From Deltaproteobacteria bacterium (GTDB lineage Bacteria > Myxococcota_A > Polyangia > JAAYKL01), in contig JAFGQN010000249.1 of the NCBI GenBank assembly GCA_016935665.1, positions 1-39,968 of the forward strand: 39,968 nt of DNA, given 5' to 3'. This document shows, in pieces, positions 9,816 to 18,791 of the stretch. The notes beneath the pieces are model-generated. The model had not been told where the DNA came from, searched no databases, and saw only the letters and a list, made by a program, of their open reading frames with translations. The translations under genes and the position numbers were made by a program. Every line of letters begins with the position of its first letter. The stretch's first letter is position 1.

Positions 9816-11693
9816 ATGACGAACCCAAACGGCGCACTCATGATTTTGCTGCTGATGTATACGGTAATGGCGGGCTGCTCGCACGGCGGCGATGCCCCGA
9901 AGGATGGCGAACAGTCCAGTTCGGATGCAGATAGTGATGCGGACAGCGACAGTGATGGCGATACGGACGCGGATGGGGATAGTGATACAGACGGCGACAC
10001 AGATACGGATACGGATACGGATACGGACAGCGATTCGGATGCAGACAGCGATACCTATGGGGACACCGATACAGATGCGGATGGCGACAGCGACACGGTC
10101 AGCGACACCGAAAAAGGTACGGATTCTGAAACGGAAATCGATACGGTGGATTACGCCGACACCGATCCGGATGCCCCACAGATTCATGGGCCGAATATTG
10201 TCGGCTCCCTTACGGGCAGTCCTTTCATGTACGCTGTGCCAGTGACTGGAAAGGCAAACATTGAATTTAGTGCAGACGCTCTGCCTGCGGGGTTGACCCT
10301 ATCGGAAACGACAGGCGTGATTTCCGGAACCACGCCGTCTGCAGGTGCGTATCCGATGCGTATGACCGCGTCCAATGATGCGGGTTTCAGTCGTCGCACC
10401 ATTACACTGATTTCGGGCGACACCCTCGCGTTGACGCCGCCTTTGGGCTGGAACAGCTACGACTCTTTTGGTGGCAGCGTCAACGAGCAGGAGACCCTGG
10501 CGGCCGCCAAAGCCATGAAAACCCACCTTGCCCCATACGGATGGAATACAATGGTCATCGACTATCTGTGGTACGACAATGAGCAGGTGATTGATGAAAA
10601 TGGGCGTTACCAGCCATCGCCCGACAGATTCCCGTCTTCGGTCGATGGAAAAGGATTCAAACCCATTGCCGACCAGATTCACGACATGGGTCTGCTTTTC
10701 GGGATACACATCATGCGCGGCATCCCCAGAAAAACAGTGACCGCCAACTCCCCCATCGCCAATTCTTCGTTCAAAGCGGCAGATGCGGCCAATACTTCCG
10801 ACGCCTGTCCCTGGGACAAGCACATGTGGGGCGTTCGCGGTGACACGGCAGCGGGAAAGGCCTGGTATGATTCCATCATCAGCCAATACGCCCAGTGGGG
10901 GGTGGATTTCATTAAAGTTGATGATATCGTCAATCCGTATTCAGGCCGTTTCGAATACCATGCCGCAGAGGTGAGCGCCATTGCCGCCGCCATTAAAAAA
11001 ACGGGGCGTTCAATCGTGCTCAGCCTGTCGCCTGGTCCCATGCAAACCCGGGATGTGGCACAGATGAACGCGGACGCCAACATGTGGCGGATGGTCAACG
11101 ACTTCTGGGACACCAATGGTCTCAGCTCACTGGATGAGGAATTCAGCACCGCCTACGACTGGTCCATCACAGATGGCATCACACAGGGGCACTGGCCCGA
11201 CGCCGACATGCTGCCGCTCGGATATCTGGGCCCCCGCTGTCCGGCACATGGCGCCGGGCAGAACGCCCTCAGTCACAATCAGCAGTACACCGTGATGTCG
11301 CTGTGGAGTATCCTGCCGTCGCCGCTGATGTTTGGCGGCAATCCCACCCGATTGGCCAACGATCCATGGACAGTGGCGCTGCTAAGCAATCCGGAAGTGC
11401 TGGCGGTAAATCAGGATGCGGCGGGCCATCGCAGCAAACGGATTTCAAAACAGGGCAGCACCGAAATCTGGGCCAGAGAGTTACAGGACGGCGGTGTGGC
11501 GGTGGCGCTGTTTAACAAGGGGCAATCCGATACCCAAATATCCGTTTCATTTGAGCAGCTCGACCTGTCGGGCGCCCTCACTGTCCGGGACCTGTGGCAA
11601 CACGAAGATGTGGCGGCAACCAACAACGGCATCACCGCGTCTGTGCCGGCAGAAGGCGCAATGATGTACAGAATATCCGACGCTACAGATTGA
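9816..11693 (+). CDS. GH27 alpha-galactosidase lipoprotein on an Asp-rich stalk
   Basis: 625 residues. A signal peptide ends in the lipobox VMAGC (Cys21). Residues about 36-125 are an almost pure Asp/Ser/Thr/Gly stalk. A putative Ig-like domain (He_PIG type, ALPAGLTLSETTGVISGTP-like) follows at about 128-200, then a GH27 catalytic domain from PPLGWNSYDSFGG onward. The nucleophile is expected in FIKVDD (about residue 369) and the acid/base in WRMVNDFWD (about residue 429). The enzyme would release terminal alpha-galactose from glycans while tethered outside the cell. The ATG at 9816 has a GGAAAGGAAA site. The repetitive stalk DNA (9930-10150) is prone to slippage. Confidence 0.9.
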   Translation: MTNPNGALMILLLMYTVMAGCSHGGDAPKDGEQSSSDADSDADSDSDGDTDADGDSDTDGDTDTDTDTDTDSDSDADSDTYGDTDTDADGDSDTVSDTEKGTDSETEIDTVDYADTDPDAPQIHGPNIVGSLTGSPFMYAVPVTGKANIEFSADALPAGLTLSETTGVISGTTPSAGAYPMRMTASNDAGFSRRTITLISGDTLALTPPLGWNSYDSFGGSVNEQETLAAAKAMKTHLAPYGWNTMVIDYLWYDNEQVIDENGRYQPSPDRFPSSVDGKGFKPIADQIHDMGLLFGIHIMRGIPRKTVTANSPIANSSFKAADAANTSDACPWDKHMWGVRGDTAAGKAWYDSIISQYAQWGVDFIKVDDIVNPYSGRFEYHAAEVSAIAAAIKKTGRSIVLSLSPGPMQTRDVAQMNADANMWRMVNDFWDTNGLSSLDEEFSTAYDWSITDGITQGHWPDADMLPLGYLGPRCPAHGAGQNALSHNQQYTVMSLWSILPSPLMFGGNPTRLANDPWTVALLSNPEVLAVNQDAAGHRSKRISKQGSTEIWARELQDGGVAVALFNKGQSDTQISVSFEQLDLSGALTVRDLWQHEDVAATNNGITASVPAEGAMMYRISDATD

Positions 11694-14108: not shown

Positions 14109-14111
14109 AAT

Positions 14112-14234
14112 GCGGATGCAAATCCCTTCGGTCCGATGTATAAAGAGTACTTCATTATTCGCAGGAAAAGCAGTAATATAAACCCATTTCCTGCCAGTTT
14201 TAAACCGCCGGTCTTCAATGACATGAAGGCTTAA
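14112..14234 (+). pseudogene. C-terminal remnant of a group II intron maturase (copy A)
   Basis: Forty codons ending in TAA read ADANPFGPMYKEYFIIRRK and then NPFPASFKPPVFNDMKA. The ANPFDPxYxEYFxxRR pattern is the C-terminal end typical of group II intron reverse transcriptases. Nothing of the polymerase or maturase domains remains upstream, where the barrel-like lipoprotein gene ends. Copy B at 17133 has about 90% the same DNA over this stretch. The stop is followed directly by intron RNA domains, as in complete introns. Confidence 0.75.
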
Positions 14235-14323
14235 AGGGGCCCCTGCGGATGACGGGAAACTGTCTCGTACAGTTCTTAGGGGGCGACAGGGGCGAAAAGC
14301 CCCCTGATCTACCCGGAGTGCGA
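14235..14323 (+). ncRNA. Degenerate group II intron 3' end, domains V/VI (copy A)
   Basis: The sequence downstream of the maturase remnant matches copy B through CTGATCTACCCGGAG. The distal part of domain V (GAAA tetraloop region, CTGTC, GTACAGTTC) is kept. The 5' arm at 14242-14250 is changed and no longer pairs with GTACAGTTC, and the catalytic AGC triad is missing. Domain VI (GGGGGCGACAGGGGCGAAAAGCCCCC) can still form. The copy should be catalytically dead. Confidence 0.65.
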
Positions 14324-14344
14324 GCAGGAAATGTACACAAACAG

Positions 14345-14809
14345 ATGACAATCATCAAACAAATTTCGGAAAAAGAAGTGCCGATGAGTATGTTGCTTCA
14401 TGCCGACCCATCAGAAAAATGTATTGAGCTATATCTTCATGGATCCAAATGCTTTGGCGCATTTGTTGAAGACTCTTTAGTTGGCGTGTGTGTAACAAAT
14501 TCGAATGGTGCTGATGCATGGGAAATATATAATATTGTAGTTATTCCGGAAAAACAGAAACAAGGGTTTGGGAAAAAACTTCTTGAATTTGTAATCAATT
14601 ATTTTGAAGAGACAGGTGCAAAATCGCTTGAATTGGGAACTGGCACATTTGGTTATCAATTGTTGTTTTATCAACGGTTTGGATTCAGAGTTGAAAGTGT
14701 TCGTAGAAATTTCTTTGTCGATAATTATTCCGAACCTATTTACGAAGAAGGCATACAACTCAAAGATATGCTCAGACTAAGCATAAAATATGACCGGCCA
14801 GGCACATAA
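14345..14809 (+). CDS. GNAT family N-acetyltransferase
   Basis: 154 residues from the ATG at 14345. The GNAT acetyl-CoA-binding motif is clear: IYNIVVIPEKQKQGFGKKLLEF, with the QxxGxG pyrophosphate loop, followed by the GYQLLFYQRFGFRVESVRRNFF motif near the C-terminus. The substrate is not evident. The open frame extends upstream to 14249, but that part is intron DNA and is rejected as coding. The gene is much more AT-rich than its surroundings and sits about 20 bp after the intron 3' end, so it looks acquired. It has no clear ribosome-binding site at standard spacing. Confidence 0.85.
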   Translation: MTIIKQISEKEVPMSMLLHADPSEKCIELYLHGSKCFGAFVEDSLVGVCVTNSNGADAWEIYNIVVIPEKQKQGFGKKLLEFVINYFEETGAKSLELGTGTFGYQLLFYQRFGFRVESVRRNFFVDNYSEPIYEEGIQLKDMLRLSIKYDRPGT

Positions 14810-14811
14810 CA

Positions 14812-14958
14812 ATGAAAGAGAGGGAAACAGGTGGAAACCGGGACGTAGTAAAGTTGATCCGCACTGAGAAGAAACCCCTCCTCAAAAGTTTGATCAGGAA
14901 GCTATCCGCAATCGATCAGGAATGGGCATCACGGATTGAAATAATATGCGATAGTTGA
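14812..14958 (+). CDS. Small ORF just before the IS1182-type transposase
   Basis: A 48-codon frame encodes a basic helical peptide (RDVVKLIRTEKKPLLKSLIR, then KLSAIDQEWASRIEII). Its TGA overlaps a possible TTG start of the transposase and precedes the ATG at 14961 by 2 bp. The ribosome-binding site is weak. The DNA just before the relic transposase at 19407 is similar to the end of this ORF, so the stretch belongs to the element, but coding is uncertain. Confidence 0.3.
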   Translation: MKERETGGNRDVVKLIRTEKKPLLKSLIRKLSAIDQEWASRIEIICDS

Positions 14959-14960
14959 GC

Positions 14961-16838
14961 ATGTTCAAAGAAACCGATCCTCAAAGAGCGATATTTGAAG
15001 TGGACCACCGGCTTCCCGAAAACATACGGAGGATGCTTCGGGGCACTTGGGCTGAAGGGTTTGTCTCTAGAATTTTTCCGGTTCTGCTGCAAATGGAATC
15101 AGAACTCAGCAGCCTTTACTGTGCGAACAACGGACGTCCCAACTGGAGCGTGGCGCGAATGCTGGGTCTGAGTATTCTTCAGGAAATGCATAATCTGCCG
15201 GACCAGGACGCACTGCACTGTTTTTCGTTTGATGTACGCTGGCAATACGCACTGGGTGTGGAACCGGAACACGCCTACCTGTCGCGGCGTTCGCTGGTTG
15301 ACTTTCGCAGTCGCATTGTGCAGCAGGATCCGGAGATGAGCATGCTGCAGTCGGTGTTTAATCGCATCGGCGATGCGGCGATAGCGGACTTGAAAATAAG
15401 CACCGATGAACAGCGACTGGATTCCACCCGCATTCAGTCGAATATTTTCACCTGCGGTCGCATTGACCTGTTCAGCAAAACACTTTTTAAATTTGTGAGA
15501 TGGCTGAGGCAGAATTGTCCTGAAAAAACTGACACTCTCAGCGCTGGAATCCATGAGTGGTTTGCAAAGTATGATGATGATGGCTGGTTTGGTCACAACT
15601 TCCGTCTCACCCCGGAAAAAAAGCGGGTCAGGCTGCAGCAGCTTGCGGAGTATCTGTATGAAACAAGGGTGACATTTGAATCGGACGATGAGGTGAAAGG
15701 GGAGGAAGCGTACGGGCTTGTATGCAGACTTCTGGATGAACAGTGCGAAGTGAAATCCACCAGTGATGACACTGCCAACAATGAGGATAGGCCCAACGAC
15801 TCTGATGGCGGAAACATTGAGTCCAGCGATCTTGGCGATGTGCCCAAATCAAAAATACAGGTGCTGAAAAAGGTTAAGAATGCATCCACTTCCCTGCAGT
15901 CACCATATGATCCCGATGCGGGATACTCCGGCCACAAAGGCGAAGGATACTTTGTACATGTGACTGAGACGTGTAACAATGATACCAGGGAAATCATCAC
16001 CGATTATTTTGTGGTGCACGCCGGAATAGATATGAACCAGGATCAGACGGCCATTGAAAATCTTATCAAGGCGGGTCGGCAACCGAAGCGGCTGTACGAA
16101 GATGGTGGCTACATTTCATCGACCGGCCTTTTGGCTGCCCTCGAAAAAGGGACAGAACTCGTCGCGCCCATTGCGGTAAAGAACCAGCGCGAAGATGCTA
16201 TCTGCAGAGACCGGTTTCGGTATGATGAAGAAGGCAACTGCACCGCATGTCCAGCGGGCCATGCCCCGATCCGTCACGGAATGCGCACCAGCTCAGGCAA
16301 ACCGGAGCCGGCGCTGCACGCTTTCTTTGATGGGAATATTTGCAGTCAATGCGAACTGGGCGAGCGATGCATGGTGCGTCCGCCAAACAATAAAACAGGC
16401 AAAGAGTTTCATCTCGAAATCGACCCGGCCCTGATATTGAAGGACCGGGTGAAAGCGGAACAAAGCAGCAGCGAATGGTGGGAGCGATACAAAATCAGGG
16501 CGGGCATTGAAGCCACCATGTCGGAACTGGCAAGGGTGAACGGAATTAAACATTTGCGCGTACGGCGAAAGCCGAGGGTCTCACTCGCCGTGTCGCTGAA
16601 AATCACCGCATGCAACGCCAAACGGTGGATAGCTGCGTCCGAAATTGCCAAACGCGGCAACGGCGAGGCACCACATCCAAGCCCGGAAGGCGACCCAACT
16701 CGTATTTGTATGATTTTTGCCATCACAGCGCTCTGTCGCGTCTTCTGTCAGCAATTCGCATTGCAAATACAGGAGCAGAATCTGCGTATCATGGCGCTTA
16801 TGACATGCGCCCATACAGCTCTCAGCGCGAAACAATGA
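14961..16838 (+). mobile_element. IS1182-type transposase, apparently intact
   Basis: About 625 residues. The N-terminal domain (GTWAEGFVSRIFPVLLQME, GRPNWSVARMLGLSILQEM, DALHCFSFDVRWQYALGV) is typical of IS1182/DUF772 transposases. The DDE residues fit DSTRIQSN (first Asp), YEDGGYIS (second Asp) and RAGIEATMSEL (Glu). A Cys-rich zinc-binding segment (CTACPAGH, CSQCELGERC) lies before the Glu, as in the family. The ATG at 14961 is preferred; a TTG at 14955 is also in frame. The last ~65 residues after NAKRWIAASEIA are unlike the family end and may be read-through. Clear terminal inverted repeats were not found by eye. Confidence 0.85.
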
Positions 16839-17130
16839 ATTCAAGTACCTTAAAAACACGGATTAATTCGCAGGGATCAAGTCGGTAAAGTTATCATCCA
16901 TATCTGTCATACTTTGGTATCATCATTTTCATGAATGACAGACTCACAGTGCATATGTGTGTGAACCAGTATGATAATCTCACCTGTAGCGCCTCAGTCG
17001 TGCGGACCGGGAGGTCCGCGGTCCCAGGTATTCGGCAACAACTGGAACTATCCAGTTTCACCGCGCATCTGAAATCGTTGAAAATTTGTTGCTGTGCCCG
17101 TTTGCGCTCACAAAAAAAACAGAAATATTA
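16839..17130. other. Non-coding stretch with two hairpins
   Basis: No gene is recognised. There are two perfect inverted repeats: CTGTCAT (16904-16910) with ATGACAG (16935-16941), and GCGGACC-GGGA-GGTCCGC (17002-17019), a 7-bp stem with a four-base loop. They may belong to the right end of the IS element or to the 5' side of the intron remnant. Confidence 0.5.
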
Positions 17131-17132
17131 AA

Positions 17133-17255
17133 GCAAATGCAAATCCATTTGATCCGCGGTATAAAGAGTACTTCATTATGCGCAGGAAAAGCAGAAACAT
17201 AAAACCATTTCCTGCCAGTATTAAACCGCCGGTCTTCAGCGACATGAAGGCTTAA
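17133..17255 (+). pseudogene. C-terminal remnant of a group II intron maturase (copy B)
   Basis: Forty codons ending in TAA read ANANPFDPRYKEYFIMRRK and then KPFPASIKPPVFSDMKA, matching the C-terminal end of group II intron reverse transcriptases. The frame continues only a few codons upstream with any likeness (KKNRNIK). It is about 90% identical in DNA to copy A, in the same orientation, 3.02 kb away. Confidence 0.75.
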
Positions 17256-17263
17256 AGGGGCTT

Positions 17264-17297
17264 GAGCTGTGTGATGGGAAACTGTCTCGCACAGTTC
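17264..17297 (+). ncRNA. Group II intron domain V (intact fold, copy B)
   Basis: This 34-base segment folds exactly like a catalytic domain V: a 9-bp lower stem (GAGCTGTGT with GCACAGTTC) containing the AGC triad, a two-base bulge (TC) on the 3' side, a 5-bp upper stem (GATGG with CTGTC) and a GAAA tetraloop. It lies 8 bases after the maturase stop, as in complete introns. No other catalytic domains were found, so it cannot splice alone. Confidence 0.8.
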
Positions 17298-17338
17298 TTA
17301 AGGGGGCGATAAAAGTCCCCCTGATCTACCCGGAGCGC
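17298..17338 (+). ncRNA. Group II intron domain VI and 3' end (copy B)
   Basis: A stem GGGGG-CGATAAAAGT-CCCCC is followed by CTGATCTACCCGGAG, the expected position of the branch-point helix and the 3' splice region. The A of CTGAT is a candidate branch point. Copy A shares the sequence through CCCGGAG, so the exact intron end cannot be fixed from two copies. Confidence 0.6.
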
Positions 17339-17351
17339 AACACAAAGAGAA

Positions 17352-18017
17352 ATGAAACATATAGTAATAATAGCGACATTAACGATGATGTCATGTCATC
17401 CAGTAAAGGTAAGCAAGACAAATCCCTTACCTGTGGATACAGGTAATCAATCCATTGTAGAAATCGAAAATATAGAAGAATCAGAAGTTAATGAAGTGTC
17501 AAATCCACAGATCGATTCTGACGAAAATGATTCAGAAGCAGACACGCAGGAATCTCTAAAAAAAAAGTATGACATGTTTTGTATGGACCCTGCGCTCGAC
17601 GACCATTTCGAAATATACTCTTCTCCTGTAAAAAAGTTGAAAGGAAGAATGGTATTGTTTAAATGGCGTCAGTTTGAGATTGCGTTGCTCGCCGAAGACA
17701 TTTTTCCTGTATTGAAAGAGTTTTTGGGGAGAGTAAGGCAAGACCTGTTTCCACAGACTGTAGTTCTTTTCGATAAACTATCTGAAGAAAGCGAAGCTGT
17801 TGTAAAAGTAGATGGTTTTCCTGATCAAGGTGAGTTTATACATTCTATTTCCGAGTTGATGAGAACAAAGCCATTTTACATTCGTGATACCAAGACCGGT
17901 CAAAAATATTTTAAGATAAAATATGGCGAATTTTCGAATGGAATGCTCGCTTTTGCTGAAGTATGTACACTGAAACGCGAAACAATATTTTGGATTGAAT
18001 TGTGGCACATAATCTAA
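17352..18017 (+). CDS. AT-rich lipoprotein of unknown function
   Basis: 221 residues. A short signal peptide ends in the lipobox TMMSC (Cys15). An acidic low-complexity stretch follows (about residues 35-70, rich in Glu, Asp, Asn and Ser), then a globular domain (LFKWRQFEIALLAEDIFPVL, EFSNGMLAFAEVCTLKRETI). No family was recognised. Codon use is clearly more AT-rich than in the flanking core genes. It begins about 14 bp after the intron 3' end, in the same position that the GNAT gene has after copy A, which suggests both arrived by related events. Confidence 0.7.
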   Translation: MKHIVIIATLTMMSCHPVKVSKTNPLPVDTGNQSIVEIENIEESEVNEVSNPQIDSDENDSEADTQESLKKKYDMFCMDPALDDHFEIYSSPVKKLKGRMVLFKWRQFEIALLAEDIFPVLKEFLGRVRQDLFPQTVVLFDKLSEESEAVVKVDGFPDQGEFIHSISELMRTKPFYIRDTKTGQKYFKIKYGEFSNGMLAFAEVCTLKRETIFWIELWHII

Positions 18018-18467
18018 ACAAAACAGCGCAGAACAACCGCTTGCTCGTGCCGTGGAAAGCTCAGTGACGCAGGAATAGGGAGTGACGTCCCTTGAAATCG
18101 TCTGTGTGCCCCGTTTCCTCTCACTCTCTCAATCATTTTATTTACACAAAATGATTTGTCGTGCACTGCTCATTTTGCATTGCAAAATAAGTTGTCGGGG
18201 TCGCGAGCGAGTCGCGACTGGTGGGTGAGCTGAGAAGTGAGTCCCACCGGAATAAGGATTGGTCATCTGGTTCGCAGTGGAGCTGAGAGGCGATCTTTGA
18301 GAGGAGATGTCTGAAGCGAAAGTGAAGCGAAAACGCAGGCTGCGTAATTGAATCCCGAATTGTTAAACTGCACATATGACGACACAAAGCGTCTCGTGGA
18401 ATCCGCAGATTCCTCCTGTGTCCTGGATTCGGAACATGTCTATCTCTCTCCAAATGCGTCACACGTA
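18018..18467. other. Gene-free stretch with a cluster of inverted repeats
   Basis: No gene is recognised over 450 bp. Between 18131 and 18248 four inverted repeats follow one another: AATCATTTT/AAAATGATT (18131-18156), ATTTTGCA-T-TGCAAAAT (18172-18188), GTCGCGA-GCGAG-TCGCGAC (18200-18218) and GGTGGG/CCCACC (18220-18248). The first three have perfect arms. None is followed by a T tract, so they are not ordinary terminators. They could be recombination or protein-binding sites. Confidence 0.55.
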
Positions 18468-18791
18468 GTTTTAACCGCTCATTATTTAATTCGAACTATT
18501 CGAAACTCAGTCGTCACTGACCTTTAACTCTCGAAACTATTTATTCGGCCGGTTTTAACCGCTGATTGGTTTAGTTAGACGGGCTGAAAGTCGGTTGTTA
18601 CTGGGTTTTGACCGTCCTGAACTAATTTTTGGGTCGGTTTTAACCGGGGTTTGTTTAATTGGGCGGGTTTTGAGGGCGGTTTGGACCGGGGTAAATATAT
18701 TATGAACTAATTGAAAACCGGTTTTAACCGGCAGAGATTTAGTTTTGTGGGCTTTTTGGGCGGTTAACACCGGTGGGGGTTGTTTTTGAAG
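18468..18791. repeat. Four tandem copies of an 84-bp degenerate repeat
   Basis: The decamer GTTTTAACCG recurs at 18468, 18552, 18637 and 18721, spacing 84, 85 and 84 bp. The following sequence is also shared in a degenerate way: TTTAATT or TTTAGTT about 10 bases on, a GGGCGG or CGGTT motif near the middle, then GAACTAATT. The last three copies are closest. The unit contains the inverted repeat CGGTT-TT-AACCG. It lies directly downstream of the small gene at 18792. Confidence 0.7.

Follow-up and report, generated by a model that had tools for sequence, protein, structure and literature searches.

The window analysed here, 39,968 nt in length, is contig C88 of the source genome G000, an 8.16-Mb draft. 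Between positions 14109 and 18391 it carries two 5′-truncated group II intron tails (copies A and B) oriented in the same direction, each followed by an AT-rich gene, with an IS1182-like transposase in between (Table 1). The earlier note had described A and B as direct repeats of a maturase tail plus domains V and VI, with AT-rich genes close behind, and both descriptions hold: the copies agree at 89% over 132 nt without gaps and at 85% over ~208 nt, and the GNAT and lipoprotein-like reading frames are real. Upstream of copy A lies an ordinary gene and no attC, and the attC remnant of cassette A is interrupted by the IS region. An empty-site comparison with the sister species showed that synteny is not kept across 14109-18525. 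The segment is best read as a degraded two-cassette cluster without an integrase, similar to a CALIN, which is disrupted further by small repeats and an element of the IS1182 type.

Table 1 Features of the intron-cassette cluster, in window coordinates.
Feature	Position	Strand	Details
Copy A, 5′-truncated group II intron tail	14109..14317	+	Last ~39 maturase codons, domains V and VI, 3′ end CTACCCGGA
GNAT acetyltransferase gene, cassette-like	14318..14809	+	ATG at 14345, in-frame GTG at 14318; Pfam Acetyltransf_1, 2e-11; GC 0.37 vs 0.50 for the window
TAACAATGAAAGAGAGG, attC remnant of cassette A	14807..14823	+	Matches the beginning of a repeated attC-like site in G005 C507 (L053 2638 ff) at 16/17 positions
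IS1182-like transposase, between both cassettes	14955..16838	+	
Copy B, 5′-truncated group II intron tail	17115..17334	+	AGC triad intact; domains V-VI match Intron_gpII at 17262-17335
Lipoprotein-like gene, cassette-like	17352..18017	+	GC 0.36; without Pfam or NCBIfam match
GCAGAACAACCGCTTGC, attC-like R″-L″	18028..18044	+	Integrase-side attC C85a has CTATAACAACCGCTTGC
5′ part (domain I onward) of next intron copy	18045..18391	+	Probable start GTGCC at 18047; RF02005 at 18238-18391

Repeated elements of other kinds accompany the cluster. The intron 5′ part behind gene B is interrupted at about 18112-18220 by a ~110-bp repeat (CTCTCAC..TTTTGCAAAGCAAAATAAGTTGCCGGGTGTCGCGAACAAGTCGCGAC), which is also present at L054 86-298, C111:29925-29978 and C111:30789-30843. 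Both 5′ and 3′ intron parts contain insertions of this repeat, which occurs in tandem in G005 C407 and has a MITE- or REP-like look. Another recurring segment (GTCAGGACGGTAAAGTTATCA ... ACAGACTCACCGTTGC), located at 16860-16960 and in C102 and C107 near 29270, adjoins intron remnants and IS genes and is perhaps an IS end or a small non-autonomous element. Farther upstream in the window, at 9920-10146, lie coding repeats that are rich in Asp/Thr (DSDTDTD) and belong to lipoproteins, with dozens of recurrences in the three genomes of the genus.

Domains V and VI of copy B match the Rfam family Intron_gpII (RF00029) with 50 bits (E 4e-7), and copy C507a matches it with 49 bits. Copy A carries GGGGCCCCTG instead of GGGGCTTGAGC in the 5′ strand of domain V, a change that puts it under the Rfam cut-off and removes the AGC catalytic triad. 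Copies C and E have the same triad-less form of domain V. In copy D (C231), 89 maturase codons remain, with a PF08388 match of 48 bits nearby, and in tblastn comparisons the tail is 32-40% identical to group II intron reverse transcriptases/maturases of the ltrA type. The RT domain is absent from the surviving members of this family, which retain the C-terminal tail only. The tail motif KIKADANPFDPRYKEYF and the lack of an HNH domain may point to a resemblance to chloroplast-like (CL-type) proteins; a tail of 89 aa is too short to be placed in a tree. The copies are best read as remains of a degraded group IIB-like lineage whose maturase would lack an endonuclease domain.

The tails end on their 3′ side at CTACCCGGA or a close variant, beyond which the sequences diverge, while their 5′ ends are ragged. 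A full-length copy was not found in any genome searched, and we read the intron boundaries provisionally as GTGCC at the 5′ end and GGA(N) at the 3′ end, compared with GUGYG...AY. Candidates for EBS1/IBS pairing to attC were selected by eye, and none rose above chance.

The genus was sampled with three species, G000, its sister species G005 and a third species, G004, and all copy counts rest on searches of these genomes. In G000, copy A as the query matched two places in C111 as well as C231, B and C102, plus fragments. A covariance model built from nine tails was run on all three genomes: at least six strong copies of the tail exist in G000, G005 has three, and the intron family was not found in G004. 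Degenerate 3′ ends exist additionally at C224 and C111:31737, and two weak matches (C157 and a C221 fragment) were left out of the counts. In total, 11 intron 3′ ends were counted (A, B, C, D, E, G, C224, C111:31737, C507a, C507b and C407). Searches of 378 further genomes from the phylum gave no match to the maturase tail; in one genome each of 84,980 species, a search that reaches close relatives only, all matches were within the genus. The pattern that the earlier note had named as support, many copies with one shared, sharp junction base and different genes behind it, was borne out. A larger duplication including the flanking genes is ruled out: the flanks have nothing but the tail in common, apart from the intron 5′ half behind genes B and C.

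The earlier note had also stated that no 5′ intron half exists at either site. This is correct for the regions upstream of A and B, but one such half lies downstream of gene B, where it matches the domain I-IV family group-II-D1D4-6 (RF02005) with an E-value of 1e-3. Gene B is therefore flanked by remnants of two introns, a 3′ end before it and a 5′ part after it. This 5′ half recurs behind gene C, in C507 and in C15, where the E-value is 3e-7; both the C15 and the window match remain under the gathering score of 49 bits. In C507, a single intron reduced to about 370 nt stands between two cassettes. The 5′ halves after genes B, C and C507-1 and in C15 are each preceded by AAC-NNNN-GYTTGC, the R″-L″ motif of attC sites in this genus. 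No relatives of the intron 5′ half were found in plasmid DNA. Just past the 5′ half behind cassette C, at C111:29524-29721, GCGTGAGTGCAAAATGCCCGGTTTTTTGGGGTTAAAACGCC repeats follow each other in tandem at a spacing of ~82 bp.

All 11 intron 3′ ends are followed by an AT-rich open reading frame on the same strand, which starts 0-67 nt downstream and is a different gene each time. These reading frames are at least 84 aa long and have a GC content of 0.32-0.42 versus 0.50. Only 0.7% of random positions meet the corresponding criterion (≤67 nt, ≥84 aa, GC ≤0.42), with thresholds that were set after inspection of the data. The products are GNAT proteins (twice), Phd/YefM-ParE, HigBA, lipoproteins, and membrane and unknown proteins; behind one intron end a VOC-like product was recognised by eye alone. 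The cargo types GNAT, Phd/ParE and HigBA are typical of integrons. GC occupies position 2-3 or 3-4 of the 3′ exon in nine of 11 cases, against a background of 14.5% (p about 1e-6, post hoc), and the three cassette starts that can be read after GTT also carry GC at these positions. Searching for homologous cassettes that would reveal the IntI boundary gave weak HigBA matches only.

An integron integrase is encoded in G000 at C85:1838-2779 (TIGR02249; 390 bits, cut-off 265) in an open frame. TIGR02249 matches were obtained in all three genus members and in none of 11 other members of the family. G004 carries its integrase on C134 (L068) and no intron of this family, so integrase and intron do not always occur together. 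Adjoining the C85 integrase are two attC hairpins, C85a and C85b, and shuffled sequences fold far less well than the bottom strands of these sites (z -4.9 and -7.1). With C85b as the query, three strong places were found in G000, namely C85a, C85b itself and C111:31684-31732. The last of these is the second half of an attC and lies directly behind the degenerate intron end at C111:31737-31836; it is identical to the integrase-side attC in 40 of 49 positions, and none of 2000 shuffles matched as well. In G005 C407, an intron tail, a GNAT gene, an attC (84% match) and further cassettes follow one another. The attC arms recognised are those of C85a, C85b, C407-1 and the half site at C111:31684, while the window holds R″-L″-like remnants only. 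A simple attC finder run over all loci performed at noise level except for a few sites with other support, which were kept.

From the intron end at C111:31737 and the R″-L″ motif in front of the 5′ halves we deduce one type of insertion, inside attC and just after L″. We consider it quite probable that attC sites of a chromosomal integron were the target of group IIB-like introns, which inserted in cassette orientation and have since become degraded. The introns would have inserted on the attC top strand, in the same direction as the cassettes, where the intron RNP probably reverse-spliced at cassette junctions, and we infer a retrohoming route. Incomplete target-primed reverse transcription and later deletions would have produced 5′-truncated tails with sharp 3′ and ragged 5′ ends; the truncation by abortive reverse transcription and the order of these events in time are likewise inferred. 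The captured genes are best interpreted as cassettes of the genus's own integron, which IntI might recombine. The earlier note had raised the idea of a new cassette system using the intron end as its joining point. The genus does have a cassette system; it is, however, an integron with IntI and attC and not a new one. The junction at C111:31737 keeps an attC half and fits an intron inserted into attC, an arrangement directly visible at this one junction. At the other ten junctions, the L′-R′ half of attC is absent after the intron, which the invasion of attC sites does not account for.

These ten junctions, which lack the second attC half yet have a cassette-like start, speak for an alternative in which the intron end has replaced attC as the joint and units of tail and gene are shuffled by recombination at the intron sequence, even with a dead ribozyme. 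Such shuffling might proceed between intron copies by homologous recombination or by IntI acting at an intron-borne hairpin. The genes behind the triad-less copies A, C and E differ; E instead shares an upstream insertion with G, so that the characters conflict, and C507b and C407 have another insertion in common with different genes behind. The altered tails hence came to stand before different genes, for which cassette exchange at the intron sequence, gene conversion or repeated change could be responsible. However, the PHI test detected no significant recombination along the tails (p 0.47), the intron end lacks the GTT cleavage triplet, a normal half attC is present at one junction, and no two loci were found that differ only in a swapped gene. 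We regard this alternative as unlikely. A still more doubtful possibility is that introns inserted anywhere and decayed, leaving 3′ ends in front of small AT-rich genes by chance. The genome is full of IS elements and small repeats, and the fragments F (C95), C107 and C221 lie away from cassettes, but the contrast between 11 of 11 complete 3′ ends and the 0.7% expected disfavours coincidence, as do the attC sequence at one end and the R″-L″-like sequence at four 5′ ends. Finally, introns joining the 5′ ends of mRNAs, with reverse transcription turning tail plus gene into a new cassette, might explain a sharp 3′ junction immediately before the gene leader next to ragged 5′ ends, but is very improbable, because cassettes D and E keep apparent promoters of their own between intron end and ATG (TTGACG/TATCAT and TTGACC/TATTAT, by eye), which an mRNA would lack, and the cassettes end in attC-like DNA.

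The proposed insertion of group IIB-like introns into attC has its closest precedent in the group IIB introns UHB.I2, H.ha.F1 and H.ha.F2, which reside in integrons or CALINs (Sonbol & Siam 2021, PMC7923331). UHB.I2 is positioned directly after attC in cassette orientation, and H.ha.F1 and H.ha.F2 are endonuclease-free, 5′-truncated IIB tails in a CALIN with toxin-antitoxin cassettes nearby (PMC7923331). Like these, the introns described here are non-IIC introns in cassette arrays. They differ in forming a multi-copy family with 11 3′ ends in two genomes, in having one end inside attC and not after it, in derived tails common to unrelated cassettes, and in sharing their genomes with an integron integrase. 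Group IIC-attC introns also target attC, but insert at TTGT/T in its bottom strand and in the direction opposite to that of the cassettes (PMC7923331). Membership in that class was rejected, since each of the 11 ends has the orientation of the cassette gene that follows it; the 5′ half, moreover, matches group-II-D1D4-6. With chromosomal integrons and CALINs the system shares IntI, attC hairpins and small AT-rich and toxin-antitoxin cassettes. It deviates from them in that intron sequence occupies the place of a complete attC at most junctions and in that the array is spread across contigs.

The origin of integron cassettes is debated, with group II introns as one proposed link. Here, most of the recognised cassette junctions are marked by intron copies, which run in cassette orientation and in one case end inside an attC. 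Such a genome family is a natural record, rich in cases, of interaction between introns and integrons beyond the IIC-attC class. The intron-marked junctions also show a possible route of attC loss and cassette freezing.

A second group II intron-like 3′ end (GAACCGCC...GGTGGTGTGGG...CCGAT) was noticed by eye at C231:115-277, C102:55788-55954 and C45:66537-66623. Its orientation behind cassettes D and G is antisense, as expected for an insertion into the bottom strand.
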